From Chloroflexota bacterium (GTDB taxonomy: Bacteria > Chloroflexota > FW602-bin22 > JACPRP01), in contig JACQUC010000026.1 of the NCBI GenBank assembly GCA_016210495.1, positions 1 to 34,274 of the forward strand: a stretch of 34,274 nucleotides of DNA, read 5' to 3'. Positions 26-34,274 of this stretch are shown piece by piece; the first letter of the stretch is position 1, and the number at the start of each line of letters is the position of its first letter. The position numbers and the translations under genes were made by a program. The notes below the pieces were generated by a model. The model was not told the origin of the DNA, ran no database searches, and worked only from the letters and a program-made list of their open reading frames with translations.

Positions 26-1313
26 GCAAACAATCCCACGTATCGCAGCAAGTCCAAGGAACCATCGGCATAGTTGTGGAGGAACCTATTGACCTCCTGT
101 CTTAGCTTACTGAAGTCGTCAGCCAGCCGGTGCAAATGCAACAGCTCTTGCTGTAGCTTGCGCCATAGCTTCTCTATGGGGTTGCACCAAGAAGCGTAGG
201 TAGGCAACAGCACCAGTTGGATAGGCAACTTCAGGTCCTTGTACTTGGTGACAGCTAACTCAGTGGGCTCGGTCGACCATCTCTTCGGCCGGTAGTATGG
301 CCATCTGGCTTGCTGTTCCTGCAGGGCCAGCAGAACGTCTGGATGAGTGTGGATGGGCCAGTTGTCCAGTACGATGTTGATGTGCTCGGCCCCCAGGTCA
401 CGGTACATCTGGCATACCTGCTGGTAGAACTTCACCAACTCCGGTATGCCAATCCTGTAGCGAGGGAGAAACGTGACCCTGCCCGTCAAGGCGTCCAGCG
501 TAGCCACGATCCGGGTGTGGTCGTTGGAGCGGTAGCTGAGCTCAGCCAGTGGCTGGTAGTGGCCGCGCTCCTCATAGGCGTTGGCGAGTGTCGGTTGGCG
601 ATAGAAGGTGAACTCGTCTTGATACAGCAGAACCACCCTCCCAGCGGAGGCACGCGCCTGAGCCTTGAGATCCTTGATGTAGTCGAGCTTGGCCTGGTAG
701 TCAGGATCAGGGCTGTGGACATGTTGCCGTCCTCGTTTCCAACCGATCTTCAGCCGGTCGAGGAGACGGTGTATGCCCGCCAGAGTGGTCACGCGCAGCC
801 ACTTGCAGACACGGTGAATGGCATCCAGCGTCCAGCGCGTACCCTCAATGCCGAAGGCGCGGGGGTCGCGCCGGACCACGTGCAGGAGGGATTCCTTGGC
901 GGTCTCAGCCTCTTGGAACGGAGGGGAAAAAGCGGGCTTGCGCCCGCGGCCCTCACGAATCTGCAGGCCATCGAGGCCCTGGTTGAGATAGCGCTGTCGC
1001 CACTCGCCAACCGTGTCCGGCTTACGAGGCTTGAGCAGCCCTTCTTGGGCCACGAATTTGGCCGTATAGCCCGCCGCCAGCTTCAAGACGGCGGCGGCGC
1101 GTTCCCGCATATACGGGGCCGGATGATGATCGCGGATGTCTTCGAGAGCCTTTCTTTCTACATCCGAAAGTCTCGGCCAAGGATGATTGAACATAGATGA
1201 CACCTCTCTCAAGATTGTCATCGACGATACTAGCTAGTTTCGTGCCAAGCCAATATGATAGCGATTCAAGCGGTGGTAAGCATGTTGATTCCCGATTAAA
1301 TTGTTAAAGTTCA
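2..1313 (-). mobile_element. Complete IS630-family insertion sequence
   Basis: The element is about 1312 bp and carries one DDE transposase gene. Its ends are inverted repeats: bases 1-25 are the exact reverse complement of 1290-1314. IS630 elements duplicate a TA dinucleotide on insertion. TA is present at 1314-1315, and base 1 is an A that fits the second base of the matching left TA, whose T would lie outside the window. The element interrupts a DUF499 ATPase gene, so the rest of that gene should lie to the left of the window. Perfect ends and an open transposase frame suggest a fairly recent insertion. Confidence 0.9.
16..1221 (-). CDS. IS630-family transposase
   Basis: This DDE transposase would cut and paste the surrounding element into TA sites. 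The N-terminal ~100 residues resemble a helix-turn-helix DNA-binding region of the winged-helix type (VGEWRQRY, GLDGL). The catalytic triad is visible as D202 (YQDEFTF), D286 (VLDNWPIH) and E350 (WCNPIEKLW), the typical IS630 spacing. The length of 401 residues is slightly above the usual ~350. Two starts are possible: ATG at 1221 with no clear ribosome binding site, or the ATG ten codons in (1194), which has GAGAGG upstream. The gene looks intact and nearly fills the element. Confidence 0.93.
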   Translation of the reverse strand: MTILREVSSMFNHPWPRLSDVERKALEDIRDHHPAPYMRERAAAVLKLAAGYTAKFVAQEGLLKPRKPDTVGEWRQRYLNQGLDGLQIREGRGRKPAFSPPFQEAETAKESLLHVVRRDPRAFGIEGTRWTLDAIHRVCKWLRVTTLAGIHRLLDRLKIGWKRGRQHVHSPDPDYQAKLDYIKDLKAQARASAGRVVLLYQDEFTFYRQPTLANAYEERGHYQPLAELSYRSNDHTRIVATLDALTGRVTFLPRYRIGIPELVKFYQQVCQMYRDLGAEHINIVLDNWPIHTHPDVLLALQEQQARWPYYRPKRWSTEPTELAVTKYKDLKLPIQLVLLPTYASWCNPIEKLWRKLQQELLHLHRLADDFSKLRQEVNRFLHNYADGSLDLLRYVGLFAPD

Positions 1314-1314
1314 T
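1290..1314. repeat. Right terminal inverted repeat of the IS630 element
   Basis: It is the exact inverse of 1-25. It is followed by the TA (1314-1315) expected of an IS630/Tc1-mariner target site, and then by the reading frame of the interrupted DUF499 gene. Confidence 0.9.
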
Positions 1315-1315
1315 A

Positions 1316-2284
1316 AGGGCGGCGACGACGTGCGATTTGAACGCCTCCCGATCCCGGATCGACTCCGGCGTAAAAAACCGCCGCCGGAGCACCTCGGCGA
1401 CATCCTCTTTCAAGACCGGCTGGACGGCTTCATCGCGCTCGCGGCGGAAGATGGCGTACAACTCGTTGGTGATCTCCTTACCCAGGGTATCGCTCCTGGC
1501 TGGATCGGTTGCCAGGAGCGAAGCGACGATCGCACAACGGTCGACCTTGGTCGCCGCCTGAGTGAGGCCCTGAAAGAAGTTGACCAGCCTGCCGCGCCAG
1601 ACCGGATCGAGCCCGATCTTCTCGCGGGCATACATCAGCACCTCGTCGATCAGCACCAACGTCGCGAGGCCATCTTTTGCAGGGAGCGCCAACAGTGGGC
1701 CCAGGAGGTTCTCTGCCGGCGCGCTTTCCCGCTCGGCGTCGAGGCCGTCGGCGTGCAGCATTCGCAGCCCCGTTGCCCCGGCGAGCTGAAAGGCCAGCAC
1801 GCTCCACGGCTGCCGGAGCCAGCGCGTCTCGCCATCGGCTGATCGGACCTCCATCCCCTTCTCGACGTCGAGCTTGTCGAAGCAGAGGGTCGCTATACGC
1901 GCCCTGGGTAGCGTCATGCCGATGTGTTGAATGAACTCACGCACGGCAGGCAGATCGGGAAGGCCTGCGGGATCGTTCATCAGGTGGTAGAGCGTAATGA
2001 GAGTGTGAGTTTTGCCCCCCGCCGTAGGTGAGCTCTAGCTGGCGCACCGCTTTGTCGTTCCGGCCGGCCAGGCGCATTGCCACGTCCTTGGCGAGCTCTC
2101 GCAGGTTAAACGTCGGGTAGGTGAGCGTGAAGAACTCGCGGGTATCCTGGTACACGCGCCTGGCCCTGCCCATCCCCACATCGTATAGGTCGGCAGCAAA
2201 CACCGCGAGCGATAGCTCGCCCGATTTCAGATCGTCGCGTAGCGGCACAACCTCATGCCACGGCGTCCAGTTGACTTTGCCCAT
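1316..2284 (-). pseudogene. DUF499 family ATPase, frameshifted and truncated by IS630
   Basis: The 5' part starts at ATG 2284 with GGAGGAAGAAC just upstream. It reads through residues typical of DUF499 proteins up to TYGGG, where the frame breaks. Removing one base from the run of six C (2015-2020, plus strand) restores GGGKTHTL, a P-loop, and joins the first frame to the second, which carries a Walker B-like LVLIDE. About 322 codons remain. The IS then cuts the gene, and 14 or more residues at the end of the second frame come from the element. Intact DUF499 proteins are usually around 1000 residues and accompany DUF1156 methylases in defence islands. The homopolymer indel could be a sequencing error; the insertion is not. 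Confidence 0.85.
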
Positions 2285-2381
2285 GTTCTTCCTCCTCAGA
2301 CTCTGAACTCAGACGCTGATATGCGGCTACGCTTGCGCCGCATGTGCGAGTGCGAAAATGCACCTCAAATCGCGTTTCGCA

Positions 2382-2410
2382 TTGACACGCGGCTATACCT
2401 GCGCTATACT
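2382..2410 (+). promoter_or_regulatory. Near-consensus sigma-70 promoter facing away from the neighbouring genes' strand
   Basis: The -35 box TTGACA (2382-2387) and -10 box TATACT (2405-2410) are separated by 17 bases. No plus-strand gene follows for 8 kb, and a terminator lies about 100 bases downstream, so the promoter most likely makes a short RNA. Confidence 0.75.
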
Positions 2411-2416
2411 GTAATC

Positions 2417-2540
2417 AGCAAAAACCTGTGTGACCAGGTTCATCCCCCCGGCGAAGGCGTGCCCGGCTGATGGGCGCGGGTTGGGTTTCAGGTGGCGCTT
2501 AGCCTGAATAAAAGCGACCCCAACTAGCCGGGGCGGTTTT
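2417..2540 (+). ncRNA. Candidate structured small RNA beside a DUF3800 gene
   Basis: A promoter with a 17-base spacer, about 124 nt without a convincing ORF, and a hairpin terminator with a T tract form a complete transcription unit. Helices I can pair by eye: AACCTG (2423-2428) with CAGGTT (2435-2440); CGTGCCC (2458-2464) with GGGCGCG (2472-2478), one G-U pair; TCAGG (2488-2492) with CCTGA (2503-2507); and GTTGGG (2480-2485) with CCCAAC (2518-2523), which would enclose the third hairpin and compete with the terminator stem. Candidate structured RNAs located next to DUF3800 genes are known from comparative genomics. The neighbouring gene here is DUF3800, converging from the other side. Assignment to any named motif is inference. 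Confidence 0.55.
2510..2540. terminator. Bidirectional intrinsic terminator
   Basis: AAAA (2510-2513), then CG and CCCC on one arm, pair with GGGG, CG and TTTT (2537-2540) on the other. The loop has 8 bases, with one mismatch and one bulge. A runs on one side and T runs on the other let it act on both strands: for the small RNA on the plus strand and for the DUF3800 operon on the minus strand. Confidence 0.55.
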
Positions 2541-2558
2541 GTCCTCGGCTGACTACTC

Positions 2559-3212
2559 TCATTCGTCGGCGAAGCCTGGTACCATCACGACATCAACTCC
2601 CCCGCGCACTGCCGGCAGGCTAAACCTGCGCCCCTCCACGATGCCCTCCAGCGCCATCCCAGCTATCGCGTCGGCGACCTGAAGCCCGTCCTCCTCCGCC
2701 GCTGGCCGCGCTTTCACCCGGCCCAGGTGACAGCCCGGCCGCCGCTGCGCGCACAGACGTGATAGCGCCACCCTTATCCGGCTCAGTTGCCTGGTATCCC
2801 GCCGGGCGCCATCTACTATGACCAGCGCGTCCTCCAACTGCTCCTGCCGCGCGCCGACCACCGCGTCGGCGATGAATCGCTCGGTCAGCTCCCAACCTTT
2901 CATCCGATGCCAGGAGGCTCCCAACGCCGCTTTGTCCACCACGACGACCCGCACGGCGACGGACAGGTTAGCTAGCAAATCCGCGATGGCCAGCCGCAGC
3001 GACCGCCCCGCGCTGGTGTAGTGGAGGGCGAAGCCCTCCGGAAGCCTTCGTTTCCGTCTCAGACCGCTTAACGCTTCCCGCACATCCTCATACTGGCTCG
3101 TGAAAACGGCCACGACGACGAGATGCCTGGACGAGCCTTCTCTGAACTTGAACCCCGGATCGCCCGCCCAATCGACGAAGACAAGCCGACGGCCCGAAGC
3201 CGCTGTGCTCAC
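2559..3212 (-). CDS. DUF3800 domain protein, RNase H-like fold
   Basis: The 217-residue protein matches the DUF3800 layout. It opens with a beta strand ending in an acidic residue (LVFVDWAGDPG; D14, D18), has a central acidic strand end (LVIVDGARRD; D134) and closes with the C-terminal D-x2-Q-x2-D motif (DGLQVAD; D175, Q178, D181). These acids would form a metal-binding site like that of RNase H-fold nucleases, so a role in nucleic-acid cleavage is plausible but unproven for the family. The GTG start at 3212 lies six bases after the methylase stop, so the two are probably translationally coupled. A candidate structured RNA is encoded just past its 3' end on the other strand. Confidence 0.75.
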   Translation of the reverse strand: MSTAASGRRLVFVDWAGDPGFKFREGSSRHLVVVAVFTSQYEDVREALSGLRRKRRLPEGFALHYTSAGRSLRLAIADLLANLSVAVRVVVVDKAALGASWHRMKGWELTERFIADAVVGARQEQLEDALVIVDGARRDTRQLSRIRVALSRLCAQRRPGCHLGRVKARPAAEEDGLQVADAIAGMALEGIVEGRRFSLPAVRGGVDVVMVPGFADE

Positions 3213-3218
3213 CCGGAC

Positions 3219-6200
3219 CTACAGTCCGGCGAGACGCGGCTGCTGTTTCTCGGCAGCAGTGCCCCTCGCTCCGATGTAGTTGCTGATGCTTTCGAGCAAT
3301 GATCGCTCGTCGCTCCCGGCCGGTGCCAGCTCGATCAGCGCCTGTAAGAGCTGATGGAACAGCGCGCTGCGGCGCAACCCCCGGACGTCGAGATAGTTGC
3401 TCACCTCGCCGACATCGCCCGCTTTCCAGAGGAACATCAGCCGGTGACCCTGATCGATGAGCGGGACTGGCCGTCCGGTTGCGACCTCGTAGCCCATGTC
3501 CCTTCGCTTGCGCTGGCTCCAGGGCTTGAGCCTGACCTTGCTGCCGCTTCCTTCCTCGCCGTCCTCGGCCAGTTCGTCACTGCTTTCAGCCCCGATCTCC
3601 TCTTCGTCCGCAGCCTCTCGCCCACCGGTGCGCACGAGGATGTCGAACTGGCCCGCGAGGGCAGTATCCGAAAGCCCACAAGAGACAGCATATAGAATAC
3701 ACGCCCCGGCTGGGGTGTCTTCCGTGCCGAAGTCATGCCGGTGAAGCAGGTAGTAGGTTGTGATGTCATCCAACCCGCTCACAGCCGATGCGGCCCCATC
3801 CCCAGACAGCACCCGACCTACAACGAAATCAACGACGATTCGACGGACATGCCGGAGAAACTCGTTGACGGTCATGGCCTGCCCAGGCTGGTCAGCCTTC
3901 TTGACCACGGGATGCTTGCTGTAGGCTTCGAGCGCCGGCCCGGTCGCCGCCCAGACGAAGTCTGGGCCCCGGATGCCGGCATCCCAGAAGTCGTGAAGCC
4001 GGCTCGTGATTTTGTCTCGCATTTCGTCGAGGACCACACTGTCCCAGCCGGCGCGCGCGGCCTCGGGGCGCTTCTTACAGACCAGCCAGATCGAAGAGCG
4101 TAGAGAAGCGCGGCCAAAGTTCCTGACCCCTCCACGCATCTCCGTCGCTATTGGCCAAGTCGACGTTGTAGTGAATCCCGAGCGTATGATTGCCTCGACC
4201 AAAGTCTCCCAAGCTGCCGGCTGCTTACTCGCAAACACGACGACTAGACGACCGTCACTGGACAGGCGATTCCGGCAGTTCTCGAATGCCTTCGTCATCC
4301 CTTCCTCGTACGCTTGTCGTGATCGCCTCGGATCGTTCTTGTGGCGACTGTCATCATCGATAAGCTCTCCATCCTGGCGATCATCCTCCCACTTCGGCCC
4401 CAATGGCTTTCCGAACGCTTTGTCAATATCTGGAGATAGCCCGTGTAGGGTGCGCCTTAGCCATACGTGAAAGAAGTCCATTAAGTCCGAGTACGGAATC
4501 GCATCATAGTAGGGCGGATCAGTAATGATGGCGTCGTAGCTTCCCCTGGAAGGCTGAATCGCGCTCCCGCACAAAACACTTGGGGGCATGCTATCGTGAG
4601 GCAAGGAGGATAGTAGCAGGTCAAGAACTCTCCCAATGTTGGAGACGGCCCCCACATAGAACCGGTCAGCGACACACAGGGGGTTTGCCTCAGCAAAGTC
4701 CCACGTTATCGGAAGAGCAAACCGAAGGAAGGTCTGCTTGATCTCCGTGGCGACCGGCTCCCATAAGCAAATGGTGCTCATGTAGTTCACTGCCCTGTCG
4801 AGCGCGATCGCGAGGTACCCGCTCACCGCCTCCATCCACTGTCGTGGATATCCCTCCTCACTCATCGCCGCCCAGGATCTCCGCGTTTGGCAGGCGAGAG
4901 TGCCAAGGGCCAACAACTGGCGGGATGTGAACAGGTCGCGCCAGCCCACAAGGCCATAGCCTTGCACAGAAAACGCTCGTCCAGCGCCACTACCCCCACC
5001 AGATGGCGTTGATTCCGCAGGGAGTCCAAATGGCACCCTAGCGAACACCCCACCTAGCTCGTCCGCTGATGCTCCGGCCAGTTGGGCCTCCGCATCCGTC
5101 GGCAGCCGATATTCCTTGCCCTTAGCCCTCTCGTTTTCAACTACTACCGCAGTCATCACCATACCCATACGTCCGTCGCGCCCCTCAAGACGAATGTCCT
5201 CTATGGTCGTGATACCGCCGCAGCAAGAACAGGTCACACCAGAGTGCGACATTGTGCCCGCACCAACCCGTTTGTCGTGTTCTCGCCGTTGGGCCGCAGT
5301 AGCCCCGACAACTGGCACGTCCCACTGGATACCGTATAGAACGCTACGCTTATCGGAGCCCGGCTGCACGGTCAAAACCACACGATTACTGTCTCTCTTG
5401 CTCAGCCAGCGCGTCTTGAGCAGTGGCAATTCAGTCCGACAGTGCTTACACTTCACCGTCCGTGCCCACAGGTAGGCCACCGTCAGCTTGCCGTCTACCA
5501 CCGGGTAGAATCGCTCAAGGTCCGTTCGGGCGCCCTCGAGCACCCAACGCCCCCAGGCCCGCACGTGCCAGGCGAGGTCAGCCTCGAGTGTGACAGAGGC
5601 GGCAAGTTCGGGGAACTGTCGCTCTGGGTGTTCGCCCAACCCCAGCTTTTCCAGTTGGGTGCGCAGCGTCGCGCCCTTCAGTCCCTGTGCCTTGAAGAAG
5701 GACTCCATGAAGTCGCGATCTCGCAGCACGAACGAGGGCAACGGACGCTTCTGGCCGGCGAGCTTCTGCGGATACTCCAGCGTGCACTTGAGGATGAACC
5801 ACGCCACCGGATTGATGTCGATCGCCGTCGCCTCGCAGCCGAGGCGCATGGCCTCCAATGGGATTGAGCCACCGCCGGCGAAAGGGTCCAGCACCTTGGG
5901 CGCGCGCCCACCATACGCTTCCCGAATTTTCGCCCGGAACCAGTCGAGATCAGGGCTGGACTCCCGTCCCCAATGGAGAATGCCCCCTACTGTCTCCTCG
6001 GTAACTACCTCCTCGATCTTGCCGTTGGGCATCTTCTTGCGCCTGGTCGTCTCGACCACCTTGCCAGCCAGCTTCTCAAGGATCAGCTTTCGCTCCTCGG
6101 CGTTGCCCGGATTGGGCAGCAGCGTCGCAATGAGCGCCGCCCGGCATGCTGCTAGCGGCCGGCGCGCCGGCCAAATGTGTAATGTGGAGATGTGCCCGTG

Positions 6201-6284
6201 CCGGACGTTCTTCTCGTGCACGGAGTCCAGCGAGGCTTGTTTCAAGGGAAAGGCGACTTCAATTAGGCGAGGTTGATCTGTCAT
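3219..6284 (-). CDS. DUF1156 domain DNA adenine-type methyltransferase
   Basis: This large (1021 aa) DNA methylase begins with the DUF1156 signature (AFPLKQASLDSVHEKNVRHG, then the WPARRPLAACRA stretch, residues 11-50). The SAM-binding motif I is LDPFAGGGSIPLEAM (132-146), followed by AIDINP. The catalytic motif TDPPYYDA lies near residues 588-595, the DPPY form used by amino-methylating enzymes. Paired cysteines (CKHC near 280, CSCC near 350) suggest a zinc-binding insert. Its ATG start overlaps the stop of the small upstream ORF (ATGA). DUF1156 methylases occur with DUF499 ATPases and SNF2-type helicases in predicted phage-defence loci, and this gene sits in that setting. It appears intact although its partners are damaged. 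Confidence 0.9.
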   Translation of the reverse strand: MTDQPRLIEVAFPLKQASLDSVHEKNVRHGHISTLHIWPARRPLAACRAALIATLLPNPGNAEERKLILEKLAGKVVETTRRKKMPNGKIEEVVTEETVGGILHWGRESSPDLDWFRAKIREAYGGRAPKVLDPFAGGGSIPLEAMRLGCEATAIDINPVAWFILKCTLEYPQKLAGQKRPLPSFVLRDRDFMESFFKAQGLKGATLRTQLEKLGLGEHPERQFPELAASVTLEADLAWHVRAWGRWVLEGARTDLERFYPVVDGKLTVAYLWARTVKCKHCRTELPLLKTRWLSKRDSNRVVLTVQPGSDKRSVLYGIQWDVPVVGATAAQRREHDKRVGAGTMSHSGVTCSCCGGITTIEDIRLEGRDGRMGMVMTAVVVENERAKGKEYRLPTDAEAQLAGASADELGGVFARVPFGLPAESTPSGGGSGAGRAFSVQGYGLVGWRDLFTSRQLLALGTLACQTRRSWAAMSEEGYPRQWMEAVSGYLAIALDRAVNYMSTICLWEPVATEIKQTFLRFALPITWDFAEANPLCVADRFYVGAVSNIGRVLDLLLSSLPHDSMPPSVLCGSAIQPSRGSYDAIITDPPYYDAIPYSDLMDFFHVWLRRTLHGLSPDIDKAFGKPLGPKWEDDRQDGELIDDDSRHKNDPRRSRQAYEEGMTKAFENCRNRLSSDGRLVVVFASKQPAAWETLVEAIIRSGFTTTSTWPIATEMRGGVRNFGRASLRSSIWLVCKKRPEAARAGWDSVVLDEMRDKITSRLHDFWDAGIRGPDFVWAATGPALEAYSKHPVVKKADQPGQAMTVNEFLRHVRRIVVDFVVGRVLSGDGAASAVSGLDDITTYYLLHRHDFGTEDTPAGACILYAVSCGLSDTALAGQFDILVRTGGREAADEEEIGAESSDELAEDGEEGSGSKVRLKPWSQRKRRDMGYEVATGRPVPLIDQGHRLMFLWKAGDVGEVSNYLDVRGLRRSALFHQLLQALIELAPAGSDERSLLESISNYIGARGTAAEKQQPRLAGL

Positions 6285-6526
6285 TGCACGTCCGTCCTCT
6301 GTTTGATTTCCTTGCCCTGCCGAGAATCGGCCTCGAAAGTGCCGGACCTGATGCTCTTTCGGCCTTCTTCAAACGCTTCCGGCGTGGCTATTTCAAGCGC
6401 CTGGGTCAAGGTGTTGTATCAATCGTCATTACGCCCCACCTCAGCTAGCAACTGGTCGTGGGAAAGCTCGCGCCAGTACGTTTCGCACTGAGCGAATGCG
6501 CCCCCAACGCTTGTCGCTACAATCAC
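6281..6526 (-). pseudogene. Small 81-codon gene with an in-frame TGA
   Basis: A reading frame starts at GTG 6526, overlapping the helicase stop (GTGA), and ends at a TGA overlapping the methylase start (ATGA). Both junctions are typical of coupled operon genes. One TGA at 6419-6421 interrupts it after 35 codons. The first half contains CETYWRELSHDQLLAEVGR and the second YNTLTQALEIATPEAFEEGR; both read like ordinary soluble protein in the same frame. The simplest explanation is a CGA to TGA nonsense change. I see no convincing SECIS-like hairpin after this TGA, nor a redox motif around it. I do not recognise the family. Confidence 0.55.
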
Positions 6527-9500
6527 GCTGTCACCTCCGCTGCCCCGAATACCTCGCTTTCACCGATTACGACTCCTCCCTTGGCCCGCACCACAAGCTT
6601 CTTGAACGGATCCTGCACCCGAAGCAGCCGGGGGTGAGCGCTGCCGCAGTCGTACACCACATACAGCCAGTAGCGGGTGCCCAGGTTGCATGCCCTGACC
6701 CACTCATTCTCTTTCAACTCGACATCGCCGATACCTGCCCGCCCCTTGACCTCGATGGCCCTCTCGTCCTGGTCACCGTACCTCGCCAGTAGGTCAAAGC
6801 CTGGATAATCCGAGAGGCCCGCTGCACGGGCCAACTCTGGCTTAGAAACGTCGCGCACCAGTGCGCCACTGCCCTCCTCGTAGGCTCGGGCCACGCGCAC
6901 CGCGATCTGCTCGACCTCCTGATCGTGACGTTTCCTGTCCTCCGGGTCGCTAGACGGCACAACCAGCGCGTGGGCGAGGAAGGTGATCTCCCCGACGTCG
7001 GCCAGCTCGGGCTCGCGCTGGAGGGTCGCCAGTGCCTCTTCCTTGCGGGCCACGAGCGCCCGCTGCCGCTCCTTGACTCTGGTAAGCTCTCCCTTGGCCC
7101 GGGCGTCCCCTGCCCGCACCTTATCGCCAAGCCTGGTGCGCGCCGCGGCAAGCTCGGCATCCTGGTAGTCGTAGCCGCGGGCGACGAAGTCGGAACGAGC
7201 GGCCAGCTCGGCCATAAGCGTCTGGCGGTGATGCTCTGCCAACGGACGAGCTATGTCGCTCGAGATGTAGGCTCGGGCAGCATCGCGGAGCTGATTCGCC
7301 GTGGCAGCAAAGCGCGCCGCCGCAACCGGGATACCGTCGCCCCCTTTGAGAAGCAGGAGGTGCTCCACCGGGCAGGCCTCGATCCTGCCGCCCTCTTCTT
7401 GCTTCAGACCAACCAGTCGATACTCCAGCGAGTCTTCGCGACTCAGCGCTCGGAAAACGGGATCCGCCCGCCGCTCGACGCCAATCGCAGCCAGGTGAAA
7501 CACATAGGGTCTCGTGGCATACGGGTCTATGAACACACTCCCGAGGCAGGCATTCCTCTGGAAACGCTGGCATACCCACGCCCGGAATCGATCGAAGACG
7601 GGCTCGCCCGGATGGAGGAACACGACGTGCTCGCCATTGCCCGGACGGTACACCGTGAGACGCGAGCGTTGCTCCGGCGGATACGTCTCGAGCACGGGCC
7701 AGAGCGGGTCGAGCGCCCCTGTCGTCAAGGGGCGGAACGAGAACAGCCCGTCCAAGTCACCCTCGATGCCGATACCGATGAGAGGGGCTGCCCGCTCGAT
7801 GAACTGCCGGACGTAGCCGGGGAGAAGTCGACGTAGCTCCTCGCTCTCCATCTGAAGCTTGAGGTCGGGCAGCTCCACACGGACGTCGCCGCCACCGCCA
7901 TAAAGGCGCTTCTCTCTTGCCTGGAGGGCGCGGACCTGTTCCCTGGTGAGGGTTCCCTCGATTCTTCGCCCGGCCTCCTCCGCCCCTTCCTCCGTGAGCG
8001 CCTGCTGGAGATACTCGGCGATGGACACCCCTTCAAAGAGCCGGCCGATAACGTCGAAGACTTTATCCGAGCCCATCTCCTTGCGGATACTCTCCAGCTT
8101 TTGCAGCAGTGTCCTTAGTACTTTGCCTTCCCGCGTCTTTCCGGCCACGATGTTGACGATGATGACGGGATCGTGCTTCTGGCCGTAACGGTGGATTCTA
8201 CCCATGCGCTGTTCGAGTCTGGCGGGATTCCACGGGATGTCATAGTTCACCATCAGCCAACAGAATTGCAGGTTGATGCCCTCACCGGCGGCGTCGGTCG
8301 CTACCAAGTACCGCGCCCCTCCATCCGCCAGCGGCTTGCGGAAGGACTCGACCTGATCCTCACGCTCCCGGTAGTCCATTCCACCGTGGATCTGCGCGAT
8401 CTGGCCCGTGAACCCCAACCCTTCCAGCCGGCGCACCAGGAACCAGAGGGTATCGCGGTGCTCGGTGAAGACGATGAACTTCTCGTCGCGGTGCTCCGGG
8501 GATCGCAGGACCTCGCGCAGCTTCTCGAATTTCGACTCCTCGCCACGTTCGTAGACCACCCGGGCCAAGTCGAGCAGGCCCTGCACCTGAATTCGCTCGG
8601 CCTCGAGCTCGGCCAACGAGCCGGCAATGATCGCGCTGACAGCCTGATCCTCGACGGCCTCGTTCTCCTCACGCCCTTCCTCGGCCTCTTCTTCGTCCCC
8701 GGTCTTTTCCTCGAAGACGTCGTGCATTTCGTCGAGCCTTCGCTGTGCTGCCGCCAACTGCTCGAGGGTGAGCCGTCCTGACCTGACGTCGTCGATCCAC
8801 TTGTCAAGCCTCGCGAGCCGGCGCTCGAAGGAGCACAGGAGGGCATAGGTTGAGCTGGCGAGGCGGCGCTGGAAGATGCTCATCGCTAACCGTGCGGCAG
8901 AGCGGTTGAGAATGCGCGCCCGGTTATAGTGGGTGCGGATATAGCGCGTCGTCTCATCGTAGAGAGTCTGCTCGCTGATCTCACCTTGCTTTAGGTCGTA
9001 GCTGAGCGTATCTGAAAGCCGCGCCGGGTAAATGGGGGTGCCATCGAAACGGACCATCTCCTCCTTGGTACGCCGGATGAAGTGGCGTTGTCGGGCGTCC
9101 GCCGGGTAGGCGTTGAAGGCATCGATGGTCGCCAGGGCTTCGGGCTCCAGCAGCCGCCAAAGGCTGTAGTAGGGGTACTCCTTGCCCATATGCGGCGTGG
9201 CCGTAAGCAAGAGGAGATGGTTACAGCTCCACGTGAGCGCCCAACGCTCGTCTACACCGGGGACACCCGCAAGCGCCTCGGCGAGACGGTAGCGTTCTGT
9301 CCTACGCACCCGAAAATCCTGCTCTCTGTCGGCGGACAGCTTGTGGGCCTCGTCAAAGATCACCAGATCGTACGGCACCACAGCCGAATCCTGCAACCGA
9401 GAGAAGGCGCGCTCGCCGGACAGAGTATCCACGCTAATGATCGCGAGGTCGCCGTCGTGGCCAACGAAGGGATTGCCGGCGCGCACATCGCCGCCGGTGA

Positions 9501-9852
9501 TGATCGTGAAGTGCAGGTTAAAGAGGACGCGCAGCTCGCGCTCCCAGTTGCCGATAAGCCCGGCGGGCGGGACGATCAGTACCCGGCGGATCAACCGGCG
9601 GGCAAGCATCTCCCGGATGTACAAACCGGCCATGATCGTCTTGCCTGCGCCGGCGTCGTCGGCCAGCAGGAAACGGAGGCGCGGCTGGGCCAGCATTCGC
9701 TTGTAGACCGCGATGCGCTGATGGGGCAGTGGATCGATCAGCGAAATCTCCGTCGCGAACGCCGGGTTGAAGAGATGGCCATAAGCCAGTCGCTCGCCCT
9801 CGGCGACCGCGCGCACTATCTCCGGGTCGGTGGAGAAGCAGTCCGAATTCAC
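6523..9852 (-). CDS. SNF2-family helicase with DUF3883-like C-terminus
   Basis: This superfamily 2 helicase/translocase has 1109 residues. Motif I is DDAGAGKT (65-72), motif II DEAH (167-170), and the second RecA lobe shows ATDAAGEGINLQ and the arginine-finger motif QRMGRIHRYGQ. An acidic segment near 385-410 separates the lobes. The C-terminal ~100 residues (EVKGRAGIGDVELKENEW, YWLYVVYDCG) match DUF3883, a domain with restriction-nuclease-like character. The start is GTG with no good ribosome binding site. Related defence helicases often carry 70-100 more N-terminal residues before the Q-motif-like FNPAFATEISLIDPLPHQ; the open frame upstream adds only ~26 unrelated residues, so the N-terminus may be lost. 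It is the first gene of the defence operon. Confidence 0.88.
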   Translation of the reverse strand: MNSDCFSTDPEIVRAVAEGERLAYGHLFNPAFATEISLIDPLPHQRIAVYKRMLAQPRLRFLLADDAGAGKTIMAGLYIREMLARRLIRRVLIVPPAGLIGNWERELRVLFNLHFTIITGGDVRAGNPFVGHDGDLAIISVDTLSGERAFSRLQDSAVVPYDLVIFDEAHKLSADREQDFRVRRTERYRLAEALAGVPGVDERWALTWSCNHLLLLTATPHMGKEYPYYSLWRLLEPEALATIDAFNAYPADARQRHFIRRTKEEMVRFDGTPIYPARLSDTLSYDLKQGEISEQTLYDETTRYIRTHYNRARILNRSAARLAMSIFQRRLASSTYALLCSFERRLARLDKWIDDVRSGRLTLEQLAAAQRRLDEMHDVFEEKTGDEEEAEEGREENEAVEDQAVSAIIAGSLAELEAERIQVQGLLDLARVVYERGEESKFEKLREVLRSPEHRDEKFIVFTEHRDTLWFLVRRLEGLGFTGQIAQIHGGMDYREREDQVESFRKPLADGGARYLVATDAAGEGINLQFCWLMVNYDIPWNPARLEQRMGRIHRYGQKHDPVIIVNIVAGKTREGKVLRTLLQKLESIRKEMGSDKVFDVIGRLFEGVSIAEYLQQALTEEGAEEAGRRIEGTLTREQVRALQAREKRLYGGGGDVRVELPDLKLQMESEELRRLLPGYVRQFIERAAPLIGIGIEGDLDGLFSFRPLTTGALDPLWPVLETYPPEQRSRLTVYRPGNGEHVVFLHPGEPVFDRFRAWVCQRFQRNACLGSVFIDPYATRPYVFHLAAIGVERRADPVFRALSREDSLEYRLVGLKQEEGGRIEACPVEHLLLLKGGDGIPVAAARFAATANQLRDAARAYISSDIARPLAEHHRQTLMAELAARSDFVARGYDYQDAELAAARTRLGDKVRAGDARAKGELTRVKERQRALVARKEEALATLQREPELADVGEITFLAHALVVPSSDPEDRKRHDQEVEQIAVRVARAYEEGSGALVRDVSKPELARAAGLSDYPGFDLLARYGDQDERAIEVKGRAGIGDVELKENEWVRACNLGTRYWLYVVYDCGSAHPRLLRVQDPFKKLVVRAKGGVVIGESEVFGAAEVTA

Positions 9853-10350: not shown

Positions 10351-10437
10351 TCCCGCGTCGGCGCAAGCCGGGTGGAGGGAGCGCAGCCATCACCCCGGCG
10401 CGATGCTCCTGAGGTGTGCCCGAATGACGAGGAGGCG

Positions 10438-12597
10438 ATGATGCAGGAGTTTCGATATTCCAATGTCGAGCGCGAGATGCAGGTCTACGGCTACGATTCG
10501 GCGGTGAAGAGCCACTGTCGAATGTGCCACGGCGGCTGCGGTGTGATCGTCTACGTCAAGGACGGCAGGGTGGCGAAAATCGCCGGCGATCCCGATTGCC
10601 CTATTAACCACGGGACGCTGTGCACAAAAGGGCTTGCTTCGACACAACTGGCGTATCATCCCGACCGGCTGACCTACCCCGTCAAGAGGGTTGGCCCAAA
10701 GGCGAGCGGGAAATGGGAACGCATCTCTTGGGACGAAGCGCTGGACACGATTGCCGAGCGCATCCTGGCCTACAAGGACAGGTACGGGGCTGAATCGGTG
10801 GTGTTCGGCTACGGCACGGGCCGCGAGAACGAAGCGGTCATCTATCGCATCGCCAATCTTCTCGGCTCGCCCAACGTGCTAACCGCCGGGCATTTCTGCT
10901 ATGGCCCCCGCATCTCGACCAGCATCATCACCTGCGGCACGAATCCCATCGTGGACTACGAGAATTTCCCCAAGTGCATTATGATGTGGGGCAACAACGT
11001 GACTATCAGCAATGCGGACGAGTACAAGGGAGAAGCCTTTTCCGTGGCGCTGGATCGCGGCGCCAGGCTCATCGTAGTGGATCCCACGCTCACCCGCCCC
11101 GCCGCACGGGCACATGTCTGGCTCCAACTGAGACCCGGCACAGACGCTGCTCTCGCGCTCGGGATGCTCAAGGTCATCGTCGACGAAGAGCTCTACGACA
11201 AGGAGTTCGTCGAAAGGCACACTTACGGTTGGCCACAGTTGTGCGAAAGAGTAGACGAGTATCCGCTGGATCGGGTTGAAGCGATTACGTGGGTGCCCAA
11301 GGAAAGAATCAAGGAGGCGGCACGGCTCTTCGCCACGACAAAACCGGCGGCGATCCAATGGGGCGTGGCCATCGAGCAGCAGATCAACTGCGCCGACAAC
11401 GATCGGTTACTCATGTTTCTGATGGGATTGACAGGCAACATCGATGCACCAGGCGGGCAGGTTCTCAACCAATCGCCAGATATCATAAACGTCGGCCGGT
11501 TCGGTGCCCATAGCTTGCTTCCCGAGGAGCAGAAAGCCAAACGGCTGGGAGGGGAGCGCTTCCGCCTGGCCTCGCGGTTTGCCATCATTCAACCGAAATG
11601 TGTCTGGGATGCCATCATCGAGGAAAAGCCCTACCCGGTCAAAATGCTCTTTTTTATCAGCTCGAACCCTGTTATCACGCGCGCCAACGCGAAAGAGGTC
11701 TACCGTGCCCTACGGCAAGTCGAATTTATGGCTGTGGCTGACTTCTTCATTACCCCGACCGCCGAACTGGCGGACATAGTCTTGCCCGCGGCCACGTGGC
11801 TGGAGATGGATTACATCGGCGACTTCTGGAAGCGTCACGGCTACATCCTGCCTCGGCGGAAGGTTATCCAGGTGGGCGAATGCCGGTCGGATCACGAGAT
11901 GCTGAACGACCTCGCTCACCGCATCGGCCAGGGCCAGTACTGGTGGAACAGCTTCGAGGAAGCACTGGATTACATCCTCAGCCCTGCAGGCATCACCTGG
12001 AAGGATTTCGAGCAGAAGAATTACATCAGGGGAGACGTCAAATACTACAAGTATAAGGAGAGAGGATTCTCGACTCCCACGAGGAAATTCGAGCTTTACT
12101 CGACGACCCTCGAAAAGCTGGGATACGATCCGCTGCCGCAGCACAGGGAACCGCCGGAAAGCCCGGTAAGCACGCCGGAGCTGCTCGAGAAATACCCTTA
12201 CATCCTGATTACGGGCAAGCGGCTGCCCGGGTTCTTCCACTCGGAGAACCGGCAGGTCCCGTGGCTCAGGGAGCTGCACCGGGACCCGGTCGTCGAGATA
12301 CATCCCGAGACGGCGGCCAAGGAAGGCATCGAAGAGGGCGACTGGGTCATCATCGAATCCCGTCGGGGAAAGGTGAAGCAGCGCGCAAGTCTTGTGCCTG
12401 GTCGCGATCCACGGGTTGTGGCGGCGCAGCACGCCTGGTGGTTCCCGGAGAAGAAAGACTCAGGCCATGGCTGGGATGCGTCCAACATCAACGTTCTGAC
12501 GGACAACGCCCTGGAGGGGCTCGACCCAGCGATGGGCGCATCCAACGTTAGAACACTGCTGTGCAAGATATACCCCGAGAATCAAGTTGAGGGCTAG
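10438..12597 (+). CDS. Molybdopterin oxidoreductase, DMSO reductase superfamily
   Basis: The catalytic subunit has 719 residues. An N-terminal [4Fe-4S] site is formed by C27, C30, C34 and C62, followed by molybdopterin-binding domains and a C-terminal dinucleotide-binding domain (TGKRLPGFFHSENR and after). C154 in GHFCYG is at the position expected for the metal-ligating residue. The sequence resembles acetylene hydratase and polysulfide/thiosulfate reductase relatives (KWERISWDEALD, GTDAALALGM, LYDKEFVE, EKPYPVK), but it lacks the Asp after the second FeS cysteine and the Ile after the ligand Cys that matter in acetylene hydratase. There is no twin-arginine signal, so a cytoplasmic enzyme is likely. 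The ATG at 10438 follows GAGGAG; an upstream in-frame extension looks non-coding. The ferredoxin subunit follows after one base. The substrate is unknown. Confidence 0.88.
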   Translation: MMQEFRYSNVEREMQVYGYDSAVKSHCRMCHGGCGVIVYVKDGRVAKIAGDPDCPINHGTLCTKGLASTQLAYHPDRLTYPVKRVGPKASGKWERISWDEALDTIAERILAYKDRYGAESVVFGYGTGRENEAVIYRIANLLGSPNVLTAGHFCYGPRISTSIITCGTNPIVDYENFPKCIMMWGNNVTISNADEYKGEAFSVALDRGARLIVVDPTLTRPAARAHVWLQLRPGTDAALALGMLKVIVDEELYDKEFVERHTYGWPQLCERVDEYPLDRVEAITWVPKERIKEAARLFATTKPAAIQWGVAIEQQINCADNDRLLMFLMGLTGNIDAPGGQVLNQSPDIINVGRFGAHSLLPEEQKAKRLGGERFRLASRFAIIQPKCVWDAIIEEKPYPVKMLFFISSNPVITRANAKEVYRALRQVEFMAVADFFITPTAELADIVLPAATWLEMDYIGDFWKRHGYILPRRKVIQVGECRSDHEMLNDLAHRIGQGQYWWNSFEEALDYILSPAGITWKDFEQKNYIRGDVKYYKYKERGFSTPTRKFELYSTTLEKLGYDPLPQHREPPESPVSTPELLEKYPYILITGKRLPGFFHSENRQVPWLRELHRDPVVEIHPETAAKEGIEEGDWVIIESRRGKVKQRASLVPGRDPRVVAAQHAWWFPEKKDSGHGWDASNINVLTDNALEGLDPAMGASNVRTLLCKIYPENQVEG

Positions 12598-12598
12598 A

Positions 12599-13105
12599 AT
12601 GGACAAGTATGCGCTGGTTTTTGACGAGTATGCCTGCTGGGGCTGCCTGACGTGCGAAGTGGCCTGCAAACAGGAATACAATCCAATCGACGTAGCCGAC
12701 GGCGTGAAGTATCTTTCCGTGTGGCCGGATGGTCCGAAACTTGTGAACGGGAAACTCGATTTCATCTGGCGTGTGGCCGTCTGCAAGCACTGTGAGGATC
12801 CGGCGTGCCTCCCAGTCTGCCCCACCGGGGCACTTACGAAACGTCCGGATGGAATTGTGATCCTGAATGAGGAAGATTGCACCGGCTGTCAGGCGTGCAT
12901 ACCGGCATGTCCCTACAACGCCATCGACTTCGACGAAAAGGGGGCCAAGGCGATCAAGTGCAACCTTTGCTACCATCGGGTAGATCAAGGGCTGTACCCC
13001 GCCTGCGCCGACAACGTATGCCTGGCCCACTGCATCTACTTTGGGGACCCGGCAGAGATAGAGAAGGTGATAGCAGAGAAGAGGAGGGCAGCAAATCTGG
13101 CTTGA
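12599..13105 (+). CDS. Four-cluster ferredoxin subunit of the molybdoenzyme
   Basis: This 168-residue DmsB/PhsB-like electron-transfer protein carries four cysteine groups for [4Fe-4S] clusters: CWGCLTCEVAC near residue 13, CKHCEDPACLPVC near 62, CTGCQACIPAC near 97, and CNLC with CADNVCLAHC near 120-145. It would pass electrons between the molybdenum subunit encoded one base upstream and a cytoplasmic carrier. No NrfD/DmsC-type membrane anchor follows, which argues against a quinone-linked membrane complex in this operon. ATG 12599 is preferred over an upstream TTG that overlaps the previous gene. Confidence 0.88.
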   Translation: MDKYALVFDEYACWGCLTCEVACKQEYNPIDVADGVKYLSVWPDGPKLVNGKLDFIWRVAVCKHCEDPACLPVCPTGALTKRPDGIVILNEEDCTGCQACIPACPYNAIDFDEKGAKAIKCNLCYHRVDQGLYPACADNVCLAHCIYFGDPAEIEKVIAEKRRAANLA

Positions 13106-25975: not shown

Positions 25976-26224
25976 CTATTCTTGCTCCGGTGGTCGCGCG
26001 ATGCCGGCAGCGATCTGTGCCATGCGGATGACCAAGCGCAGGGCTTCGTTCACCGACTCCTCCGTGGGAAATGCTTGAGCCACATCAGGCGCCAAAACTA
26101 CCGCCTTGGTGCTGGCGCGGTAACGTTCCGCGTACTTGCCGCGCACGCCACCCTTCAGCAGCTTCGACAAATCGTATTCGGGACGCAGATCGTCCTCCGC
26201 CTCAGAAGAAGTCTTGTTTTTCAT
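25976..26224 (-). CDS. Putative antitoxin of a BrnT-type pair
   Basis: The 82-residue protein has a conserved-looking core (EYDLSKLLKGGVRGKYAERY, then VVLAPDVAQAFPTEESVNEALRLVI) that commonly accompanies BrnT toxins. It lacks the classical BrnA ribbon-helix-helix look but has a strand followed by a helix that may dimerise. Its ATG (26224) lies inside the end of the toxin gene with AAGGAAAG upstream, so translation is coupled. This is the usual toxin-first order. Confidence 0.78.
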   Translation of the reverse strand: MKNKTSSEAEDDLRPEYDLSKLLKGGVRGKYAERYRASTKAVVLAPDVAQAFPTEESVNEALRLVIRMAQIAAGIARPPEQE

Positions 26225-26483
26225 ACGCTTTTCTTTCCTTGCGCGTCAACACACGCGCGCTAATGATTCGGATGCGGTCTCCTCGCTCTGTGTATGATAC
26301 GATTAGCAGCCGGCCGCGGCGCGACTGACCGACCACGACGAAACGATATTCTTCAATCGAGTGGTCAGGATCAGGCACCGTGATAGACAGGGGATCGCCA
26401 AAAACCGTCATCGCCTCCTGAAACGACAGGTTATGCCGCGCCAGATTTGAGAGGGCTTTTTTGAGATCCCATTCGAATTCCAC
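26202..26483 (-). CDS. brnT: BrnT family toxin
   Basis: The 93-residue protein has the BrnT layout: FEWDLKKALSNLARHNLSFQEAMTVFGDPLS at the start, EEYRFVVVGQSRRGRLLIVSYTERGDRIRIISAR in the middle and a C-terminal TRKERKAYE helix. BrnT folds like RelE and cleaves RNA to arrest growth. The likely catalytic basic and aromatic residues (R, K and Y in the last third) are present, so the toxin appears functional. The GTG start at 26483 sits in a CACGTG palindrome. The antitoxin gene overlaps its end by 23 bases. Confidence 0.88.
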   Translation of the reverse strand: MEFEWDLKKALSNLARHNLSFQEAMTVFGDPLSITVPDPDHSIEEYRFVVVGQSRRGRLLIVSYTERGDRIRIISARVLTRKERKAYEKQDFF

Positions 26484-29343: not shown

Positions 29344-30039
29344 TCACCGACTTCGCCCAAACACCGCATCCAAGTCGCGCTGCGCTTTTGAACCGGCTCG
29401 ATCAAACACTCGGCGGTGGGCTTCCTGATAGGTATCTCGTAAGCTTAGCCGCTCCGAATACCCTAGTGACACTCGCTCACCCCGAGTTCGCCTCTCGTCC
29501 ATCTTCGCAAGCTCCCCCAGCACATCGCGAATCTCTTGAGGAAGTGTCCATTGGGAACGATAGACGATGCGGCCCTCCTGGTCGACGACGTAAACCATAT
29601 TGGGCAGCGTGCCGTATGCTCGGTGGATTTCGCCGTCCAGGCCGTCCACGATGATGGGCATCTCAATTCCTTCTTCACGTCTGCAATCAGCCGCGTAGCT
29701 GAGCTTCTGATCGTAGGAGGTGTGGTGAGAGTAGTTCTCCGCGGGATGGGCCTCGCGGGTGTATACGGTGAAGAACTGGAAGCCTCTGGGACCGAACTCC
29801 TGCCTTAGTTGCTCGAGCGACGGAGCCTCCGCGCAGAAGGGTGGTCAGGTGATCGAGCCAAACTCCAGGATAACATGGGCTTTTCCCAGGAAATCCGAGA
29901 GGCGAATAACCTCGCCTTCCAAGGCACGCCCGGCGAAATCGGGAGCGCGCGTCCCGACGCGAGGACCATCTCGAAATACGTCGACGGCGCTGGAACGATG
30001 GAAGCTTGGGTAGTTGTAAGTTTCGGCGTCAGTTGACAT
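29344..30039 (-). CDS. Deiodinase-like selenoprotein with in-frame TGA (Sec65)
   Basis: Read through one TGA (29845-29847), this is a 231-residue thioredoxin-fold protein; without read-through it appears as two fragments in the same frame. The TGA falls in EFGSIT-U-PPFCAEAPSLEQ, which matches the active site of iodothyronine deiodinases (GSCT-U-PPF), where selenocysteine is catalytic. Downstream text also fits the family: VYTREAHPAENY, MPIIVDGLDGEIHRAYGTLPNMVYVVDQEGRIVYR. I checked every codon between the two parts and found no other stop. ATG 30039 has AAAGGAG seven bases upstream. The residue two before Sec is Ile, not the Cys of animal deiodinases, while C69 lies four after it. Substrate unknown; peroxide, disulfide or halogenated aromatics are possible. 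Confidence 0.85.
29817..29847 (-). promoter_or_regulatory. UGA codon with bacterial SECIS-like hairpin
   Basis: Ten bases after the UGA, the message can pair GCG-CGGA (29834-29828) with TCCG-CGC, leaving one bulged U (29820) and an apical loop GGC. A short stem about 11 nt past UGA, a bulged U and guanines in the loop are the features SelB recognises in bacterial SECIS elements, although here the bulge is on the 3' side. Confidence 0.6.
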
Positions 30040-30134
30040 GTGCGTCTCCTTTCAAATGCCTGCTTGCCAAGTGCGGGCGAATTGCTTGAACACAGCCCAG
30101 GCCAGCCAAGCTAAATCGCCTTGATCAAGCACTC

Positions 30135-32111: not shown

Positions 32112-32711
32112 CTAGAGCAACTCCTCGATGAAGGCGACGAGTTGCTCCTCCGCGATGCTGCCAACCCAGCGCCGGGCCACCTTGCCCTCTCTACTGATGA
32201 AAAACGTGCTCGGAATCCCGGTGACGCCGTAGCTGATGGGAATTCTGTCACTGGGGTCTCGGCCGACAGGATAGGTGATACCCATCTCCTTCAAAAACGC
32301 CCGCGCATCGTACTCATCGTCCTGGATGTCTACACCCAGGAAAAGCACCTCTTTGTCCCCGTAGCTTCGCCAGACTCGCTCCAGCCCGGGCATCTCTTCG
32401 CGGCACGGCGCGCACCAGGAAGCCCAGAAGTTTAGCACCACCGGCTTGCCCCGCACGTCTGAAAGCGTGAGCTTGCCGCGATCGAAAAGCGCCAGGGTGA
32501 AATCTGGTGCCGACGGGGGCCGACGCGATTCGGCGCCCTGAGCAGACTTGTCGACCACAGAACGTTCAGCAGCGGCGTCCGCTCGGTTTTCGATTGCACC
32601 ACTTTGGTTGCTACAACCTATCACCGTCAAGAATAGGATTCCCCCAAGTAGCAGTGCGCCCAGGGTCGACGGCTTTCGCCACGCCTGGGGATTTTCTCGT
32701 TCCGTATGCAT
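32112..32711 (-). CDS. TlpA-like lipoprotein thioredoxin
   Basis: 199 residues. A lipoprotein signal ends in LFLTVIGC with C33 as the lipidated cysteine, so the protein would face outward on the membrane. The thioredoxin domain carries [18 protein letters not shown] with the redox pair C100/C103 and the cis-proline loop [13 protein letters not shown]. TlpA/ResA proteins reduce disulfides, for instance during cytochrome c or metalloenzyme maturation. ATG 32711 has GGGAGGAAGGAG upstream. It lies between the dehalogenase and VanW genes, 63 bases from the latter, and might supply reducing power to a neighbour; that is inference. Confidence 0.9.
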
Positions 32712-32988: not shown

Positions 32989-34274
32989 TCAGTCTAATCC
33001 GAACGGCGAGGGAGTGCCCGCCCAGAACTTGTCCGGATGGCGCCGCTTGCCGAAGCCCAGCCAGTCGTCGGCTTCGGCGATGAGTCTATTGAAAACACGC
33101 GTCCTGGAGATCGTCGCCATCGCCGCCCTGTGCCACCAGGTATCGCGCTTGCCATATGGGCAAGCGCGCACGCAAGTGGTGCAGCCCGAGTACACCTTGC
33201 CCCAGTAATCGAGACAGGTTGGGGCATTGAAGTACCATCCCTTGTGGCCCGGATTATTCCACTCTCCGACCACATTGTAACTGGTGTCTCGCTCGAAACT
33301 GAGGGAGCGAGATGGACACAGGCGGGCGCATTTCATACAGGTCTCGCAAAACTCTGTCACGCCAAAATCGATGGGCGAGTCCGGCTGCATCGGCAGGTCG
33401 GTGATCACCTTGGCCAGCCGCACGCGCGGCCCTAGCTTCGGCGTGATGAGGAGGCCCAGACGGGACATCTCGCCCAGGCCGGCGTCGATGGCAATGGGCA
33501 CCGACAGCGCCAGGTCGTTGCCGGAAGGAATGGCGAAGTAGCCCAATGCCCGAACGAACTCGGCCAGAGAGCCGGCAACCACGGGCATCATGCTGTAACC
33601 CCAGCCGACGGCGGCCGAAGCGACGCCATCGGGAGCCCGGGCGATAGCCTCCTCGGACTGGGCGACGGCCACGGCAATTACCCACCGACAGGCCTCAGGG
33701 ATAACACGCCTGTCCTCGGCAATGATTGGCTGGTCGACATCGTCGAAGACGATAGGCTTGCCTCGCTCGTCGACCGAGTAGACGTGGCGACGGTCGAGCT
33801 GCGCAACGCCAACCTCGATGGCGCCATAGAACCTGGCGGCCAGTTTCACGAGACGCGAGTTCTCCGCCGGGCTGCCCTGATGCCGCTCGACGCCAAAGTC
33901 CTCGGGAGTCCGCGCTTGAATCTTGTGCCACGCATAAAGCTCTTTAGCCACGGCATAGCGAATCGTGTTCGCTCCCTCGGCCAAGGCCCGATCTCTCAGT
34001 TCCCAGCCAGGACGTCCCTTGAAAGGGGTGACGGCATAGAACCCTCGCCTGATTCCCGGGCCTCCACCTGTCTCGCGCGCCGAACTGCCGGCCATTCCAA
34101 GCTGCTGCCTTCGCCCCGCAAGGGAGAAAGCGTGGTGTCTGGGATCGAACCGCGAGTACACGGCCTCGTCCAGCTCGTATTTCGGCTGCGCCACCTTGCG
34201 TACCCACCAGGGATGCCTATCCACCACGCCTTCGAGCGAAAGGCGCCGCGAATCAACCAAATCCTGCCCTTCAG
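32989..34274 (-). CDS. rdhA: Reductive dehalogenase catalytic subunit, 5' end outside the window
   Basis: At least 428 codons are present and the frame remains open at the window edge, so the N-terminus, and any twin-arginine signal, is not visible. Numbered from the TTG at 34260, the first [4Fe-4S] site is C305, C308, C311, C315 (FCETCMKCARLCPSRSL). The second is C349, C360, C363, C367 (SGCTTCVRACPYGKRD). The corrinoid-binding middle part carries the family's usual text (GWGYSMMPVVAGSLAEFVRALGY, LGLLITPKLGPRVRLAKVITDLPM), and the end FWAGTPSPFGLD is typical. Members use B12 to remove halogens, in respiration or catabolism. No RdhB anchor follows. Confidence 0.88.
   Translation of the reverse strand, partial: EGQDLVDSRRLSLEGVVDRHPWWVRKVAQPKYELDEAVYSRFDPRHHAFSLAGRRQQLGMAGSSARETGGGPGIRRGFYAVTPFKGRPGWELRDRALAEGANTIRYAVAKELYAWHKIQARTPEDFGVERHQGSPAENSRLVKLAARFYGAIEVGVAQLDRRHVYSVDERGKPIVFDDVDQPIIAEDRRVIPEACRWVIAVAVAQSEEAIARAPDGVASAAVGWGYSMMPVVAGSLAEFVRALGYFAIPSGNDLALSVPIAIDAGLGEMSRLGLLITPKLGPRVRLAKVITDLPMQPDSPIDFGVTEFCETCMKCARLCPSRSLSFERDTSYNVVGEWNNPGHKGWYFNAPTCLDYWGKVYSGCTTCVRACPYGKRDTWWHRAAMATISRTRVFNRLIAEADDWLGFGKRRHPDKFWAGTPSPFGLD

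Follow-up and report, generated by a model that had tools for sequence, protein, structure and literature searches.

A deiodinase-like gene of a Chloroflexota bacterium with an in-frame UGA at the catalytic position, probably read as selenocysteine

Introduction

Does the TGA that interrupts a deiodinase-like reading frame in a Chloroflexota bacterium end a gene, or is it translated as selenocysteine (Sec)? The frame lies in a contig of 34,274 nucleotides, hereafter the window (JACQUC010000026.1, assembly GCA_016210495.1), for which an earlier note, made from the letters alone, had proposed a deiodinase-like selenoprotein, hidden from annotation, whose catalytic position is encoded by UGA. We followed up this proposal by comparison with homologous loci and genomes and find it strongly supported by the alternation of TGA and Cys codons among relatives, a candidate selenocysteine insertion sequence (SECIS) hairpin, the Sec machinery of related genomes, and the conservation of deiodinase residues and fold. 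The gene thus very probably specifies a single selenoprotein of 231 residues that belongs to the deiodinase-like family of bacteria (T4_deiodinase) and in which the UGA at codon 65 is read as Sec; comparison with relatives and solved proteins supports the predicted decoding, fold and active-site composition.

A 2005 report described deiodinase-like proteins of bacteria with either Sec or Cys (PMC1088965), deiodinase-like selenoproteins were counted in the Global Ocean Sampling (GOS) study (PMC2398784), and the bacterial family is covered in reviews of 2022 and 2026 (PMC9312934, PMC13188914). The family is already known in bacteria and the window gene adds a well-supported member. As far as their consulted parts go, two further sources, on animal deiodinases (PMC10298544) and on the fusion of a deiodinase-like protein with an EF-hand domain (PMC9402790), have no bearing on the window gene. 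Neither a characterised function in bacteria nor a Chloroflexota case was found in the literature searched, which is a part of the published work.

Results and Discussion

One reading frame interrupted by a single TGA

The gene occupies 29344..30039 on the minus strand, running from an ATG at 30039 to a stop ending at 29344, and AGGAG at 30046..30050 (minus strand), a few bases 5' of the ATG, is a likely ribosome-binding site. The frame has 232 codons including the stop, and in-frame stops are confined to codon 65 (TGA, 29845..29847, minus strand) and codon 232 (TGA), as the earlier note had described without stating the strand. The read-through protein has the site sequence GSIT-U-PPF, with the predicted Sec65 at the catalytic position. 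It matches Pfam T4_deiodinase (PF00837) at 52.9 bits, above the cut-off of 27, and also exceeds the Pfam cut-offs for Redoxin (54.1 bits) and AhpC-TSA (53.9 bits). The open reading frame (ORF) listing divides the gene into the pieces expected from a standard caller, an N-terminal one of 64 amino acids (29845..30039) and a C-terminal one of 105 (29344..29661), both on the minus strand, and either piece alone falls under the cut-offs of all three models. PF00837 is matched at E <= 0.001 by all 50 members of the family alignment. The NCBIfam model NF038285 (deiodinase_rel) gave 104.3 bits, under its curated cut-off of 250, and aligned over model positions 172-324 of 347 only.

Annotation misses the gene, as had been anticipated. 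The closest database protein, HYY01_09760 (63% identical, 164 residues), is a 'hypothetical protein' of a Chloroflexi metagenome-assembled genome that starts 3' of the UGA, and further homologues of about 163 residues likewise start a few codons past it, indicating that gene calling truncates members of this family at the UGA. The locus is a clean example of a selenoprotein split or truncated by annotation, with relatives stored as C-terminal pieces.

The codon at the catalytic site in homologous loci

Protein searches gave 49 matches at E <= 0.001. Scanning of genome contigs required an alignment as query, as the window protein alone recovered no relative; the alignment-based scan identified 59 homologous loci in other assemblies (handles L; their genomes, G). 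At the aligned catalytic codon, 32 of these have TGA, 26 a Cys codon (TGC or TGT) and one Ser (AGC), the alternation that the earlier note had proposed looking for. The TGA loci come from contigs titled Chloroflexi, Candidatus Binatia, Deltaproteobacteria, Nitrospinota, Planctomycetota and others. Recurrence of TGA at the same codon in 32 relatives from other assemblies makes a sequencing error unlikely. Among 400 Chloroflexota genomes sampled from a larger group, a family member was detected at E <= 1e-12 in 19, in which 22 loci comprise TGA forms together with two Cys, two Ser, one Gly, one Asp and one Ala form. Because a single catalytic site carries Sec, Cys, Ser, Gly, Ala or Asp in different natural members, the family is tractable for questions of deiodinase chemistry outside thyroid-hormone metabolism. 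Repeated loci (L070, a repeat of L007; L071, of L001; L074, of L016) were left out of the counts. The decayed-looking L090 was omitted from the recoding helix test, tree, residue survey and rules-based SECIS test described below, L059, a short match, from the helix test, tree and rules-based test, and L091 from the tree, residue survey and rules-based test.

Selection was assessed as the ratio of nonsynonymous to synonymous substitution rates (dN/dS). Between the window gene and its sister L001, dN/dS is ∼0.28 5' of the TGA and ∼0.18 3' of it (NG86; synonymous sites near saturation). Nine other TGA pairs were computed. Wherever their dS was finite, dN/dS stayed under 0.4 both 5' and 3' of the TGA; the one exception is the 5' part of L005/L008, a very close pair, with a value of 0.62 that rests on two amino-acid changes. 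Purifying selection acts on the protein on both sides of the TGA. A quick tree with 76 rows pairs the window gene with L001 (SH-aLRT 100) and requires seven or more changes between Sec and non-Sec forms.

These data bear directly on the reading in which codon 65 is a true stop and the frame a recent pseudogene or nonsense allele. Standard decoding does terminate there, and a decayed-looking family copy exists: L090, the second copy in genome G016, carries TAA directly after the TGA, and the residues preceding it are no longer motif-like. A TGA shared by 32 of 59 loci, from contigs under several taxon titles, purifying selection downstream of it, and the absence of any further stop in the frame argue against termination, which we regard as very improbable.

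The catalytic site of the Chloroflexota loci L072, L073, L075 and L089 is occupied by Ser, Ser, Gly and Ala, respectively, and these may be non-redox paralogues. A plasmid search with tblastn returned 18 records, all below 37% identity, of which ten are annotated as TlpA or ResA and one as 'deiodinase-like protein'.

A candidate SECIS hairpin downstream of the UGA

A candidate bacterial SECIS (bSECIS) hairpin is present at 29817..29834 (minus strand), consisting of 7 base pairs (bp) with one bulged U and a 3-nucleotide (nt) apical loop, GGC, which begins 17 nt past the UGA. Its stability is -7.6 kcal/mol alone and -10.1 kcal/mol with flanks, and its upper stem has 4-5 bp. Published bSECIS rules (PMC13188914) specify a loop of 3-9 nt, an upper stem of 4-16 bp, G in the first two loop positions, a distance of 16-37 nt from the UGA and a minimum free energy of -7.5 or lower, all of which the window hairpin satisfies. 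So do 40/43 TGA genes, 4/27 Cys genes and 1/6 others; with the loop further restricted to 16-19 nt, the counts are 37/43, 1/27 and 1/6, respectively. Thus, most TGA genes have a hairpin with G in the apical loop 16-19 nt past the UGA, the stem sequences varying while pairing is kept. The helix was stronger than in synonymous recodings (p<0.05) in 23/44 TGA genes and 0/27 Cys genes, with p=0.003 for the window. The register for this recoding test was picked after inspection of the TGA sequences; the rules-based test uses published constraints instead.

Taken singly, the window hairpin is weak evidence, as 23.5% of the synonymous recodings of the window also satisfy the bSECIS rules and 9% are equally stable. 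Folding of the UGA region as a single sequence gave no significant z-score, and Rfam gave no match for the window at gathering thresholds nor for 29720-29880 at E <= 10. By our reading of the two sequences, the codon of Cys69 replaces the Val codon of L001 within the stem, and the lower stem would pair in a register shifted by one.

A related observation was made at L083 (genome G403), where Asp (GAT) stands at the Sec position in a genome having tRNA-Sec and selA. A hairpin that qualifies under the bSECIS rules persists 16 nt downstream (recoding helix p=0.077) and may be left over from a Sec codon since lost.

Selenocysteine machinery and the genetic code

Sec machinery was searched only in the genomes of relatives; the window itself contains no tRNA gene. 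The nearest genome, G001 (Chloroflexota), which bears L001 (61% protein identity), has tRNA-Sec, SelA, SelB and SelD, its SelD gene carrying an in-frame TGA of its own. tRNA-Sec was above cut-off in 28/32 TGA genomes and 13/25 Cys genomes and absent from all five archaeal Cys genomes (L049, which shares the assembly of L040, was left out), and in 16 further Chloroflexota genomes it was above cut-off in 9/11 with a TGA copy and 3/5 without; the model also passes its cut-off in 5/14 control genomes and is therefore no proof of Sec use alone. selB, tested in 21 of the 32 TGA and 14 of the 25 Cys genomes, was above cut-off in 19/21 (the other two giving lower, partial matches) and 3/14, respectively, a contrast that is biased because 12 of the 14 Cys genomes chosen were without tRNA-Sec. 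Across 25 genomes, selA was detected in 13/15 TGA Chloroflexota, 4/5 Chloroflexota with other residues and 0/5 archaea, and among the 14 controls it was matched in E. coli only. selD, searched in 18 genomes, was detected in 12/13 TGA genomes and 0/5 archaea. All 14 selD matches above cut-off contain one in-frame TGA, which independently points to UGA being decoded as Sec in these organisms. In one TGA genome, G274, neither tRNA-Sec, selA nor selD was found.

An alternative code, with UGA standing for Trp or Gly in this organism, would also carry translation through codon 65, and a metagenome protein (P0004) that has Trp at the site looks, from its protein sequence, as if it had been called with such a code. 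However, of 28 ORFs regarded as genes in the window, 13 have TGA as their stop, among them the selenoprotein gene, and TGG occurs 182 times in these ORFs, which disfavours general recoding of UGA; moreover, relatives have Cys, not Trp, at the site and Sec machinery is present in most TGA genomes tested. We consider a variant code the remotest of the explanations weighed here. Decoding of codon 65 as selenocysteine would be carried out by SelB and Sec-tRNA, with the short mRNA hairpin, whose apical loop begins 17 nt downstream of the UGA, as a probable guide.

Active site, fold and probable chemistry

The predicted protein has the deiodinase active-site residues Ser62-x-Thr64-Sec65, Tyr93, Glu96, His98 and His106. 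Residues named in work on DIO3 are Ser167, Thr169, Tyr197, Glu200 and His202 (PMC7506546); all five are kept, and the counterparts of the last three are invariant in 50 aligned proteins. Animal deiodinases (DIO3, 4tr3; DIO2, 9h48), which share the Ser, Thr, Sec, Tyr, Glu, His and His positions with the window protein, were the top solved chains in a sequence-profile search, and in structural alignment DIO2 ranked first and DIO3 third, tied with other thioredoxin-fold proteins. The window protein differs from them in several respects. The loop between the two His residues has 7 residues, compared with 16 in deiodinases. The deiodinase substrate lid is missing: in place of the insertion loop (Dio) and its AHxxDGW motif, the protein has AHPAENY. 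Two residues before Sec is Ile, where DIO3 has Cys and DIO2 Ala. No membrane anchor is visible, and the candidate SECIS is of the bacterial rather than the eukaryotic type. ResA/TlpA thiol-disulfide oxidoreductases and peroxiredoxins gave lower profile scores than deiodinases; unlike them, the window protein lacks a CxxC and shows the signature of deiodinases, E-x-H-P.

Within the selenoprotein explanation, whether the enzyme is dehalogenase-like or instead a peroxidase or thiol oxidoreductase of the peroxiredoxin/ResA type is evenly balanced. The Redoxin and AhpC-TSA scores are on a par with that of T4_deiodinase, ResA and peroxiredoxins are close in fold, the deiodinase lid is absent, and a redox role was suggested in the 2005 description (PMC1088965). 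Conservation of the residues named for DIO3 points the other way. The product would be a soluble enzyme of the peroxiredoxin/thioredoxin fold, solubility being suggested by the lack of a hydrophobic N-terminus. Sec65 may serve as a soft nucleophile, accepting either a halogen or an oxidising equivalent from some small substrate, and the resulting selenenyl species would presumably be reduced by thiols.

The window gene has PF00837, the Sec site, a bacterial SECIS and Cys-form homologues in common with the bacterial deiodinase-like selenoproteins (PMC1088965, PMC9312934, PMC13188914). Both reviews list UxxC for the family; the window protein has U-x3-C (UPPFC) and lacks that motif. UxxC was not taken as defining because Cys occurs at +3 in only 8/42 other TGA genes, all of them Chloroflexota (L022, L076-L082), and because the 2008 GOS table (PMC2398784) gives no motif for the family; 34/42 have Cys at neither +3 nor +4. 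The suggestion that UPPFC and the Ile at -2 define a distinct bacterial subgroup did not hold. Cys at +4 was found in 0/42 other TGA genes, the sister L001 having Val there, and Ile is the commonest residue at -2 (23/42), a position at which none of the 42 has Cys. Cys69 (codon 29833..29835, minus strand) is thus, on present data, a private feature of this gene. The sole further Cys, Cys119, is at Sec+54, a position also occupied by Cys in six (L001, L002, L003, L006, L007 and L016) of 11 loci compared.

Cys69, one helical turn past Sec65, might form an internal selenenylsulfide, which would make the protein a self-resolving deiodinase-type selenoenzyme that dehalogenates environmental organohalides in an organism that also encodes a reductive dehalogenase, 3 kb upstream of this gene and on its strand. 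We consider this extended proposal doubtful, with only a slim chance of being correct.

Neighbouring genes

The reductive dehalogenase homologue (32989-34272, minus strand) is cut by the contig end and matches TIGR02486 at 255.6 bits (cut-off 160.35). A homologue of this Fe-S protein adjoins the selenoprotein gene only in L016 and was not used as support. Between the two window genes are a TlpA-like thioredoxin (32112-32711) and a VanW-like gene; organism names among the 120 matches listed of 282 for the latter are all Chloroflexota. A search with the MutL-like gene of the window, intended to place its organism, gave no match among 393 genomes from the class of G001. Neighbouring genes at 30 loci, with 10 proteins annotated, do not suggest a family-wide operon.

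A molybdopterin oxidoreductase with a 4Fe-4S subunit is encoded at 10372-13105 (plus strand). Among the first 16 relatives, at least seven (L001, L003, L004, L005, L007, L008 and L013; ∼5 kb away in L005 and L013) have a distant homologue of the oxidoreductase (∼30-41% identity) no more than 8 kb from the selenoprotein gene. Five of the seven loci belong to one tree clade, and this association was likewise not used as support.

A BrnT-type ribonuclease toxin of a type II toxin-antitoxin system is present at 26202-26483 (minus strand; PF04365, 92.9 bits), and the small gene beside it (25976-26224) had no Pfam or PADLOC match. Hma-type defence genes extend over 1234-9852 (minus strand), with an HmaA helicase (522 bits) and an HmaB DUF1156 methylase (356 bits), together with a short HmaC-like piece of 248 amino acids that matches positions 108-301 of a 941-position model; a DDE_3 transposase (16-1221) lies beside them. 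Fifteen stretches were listed in a scan for further frames that could be read through a TGA.
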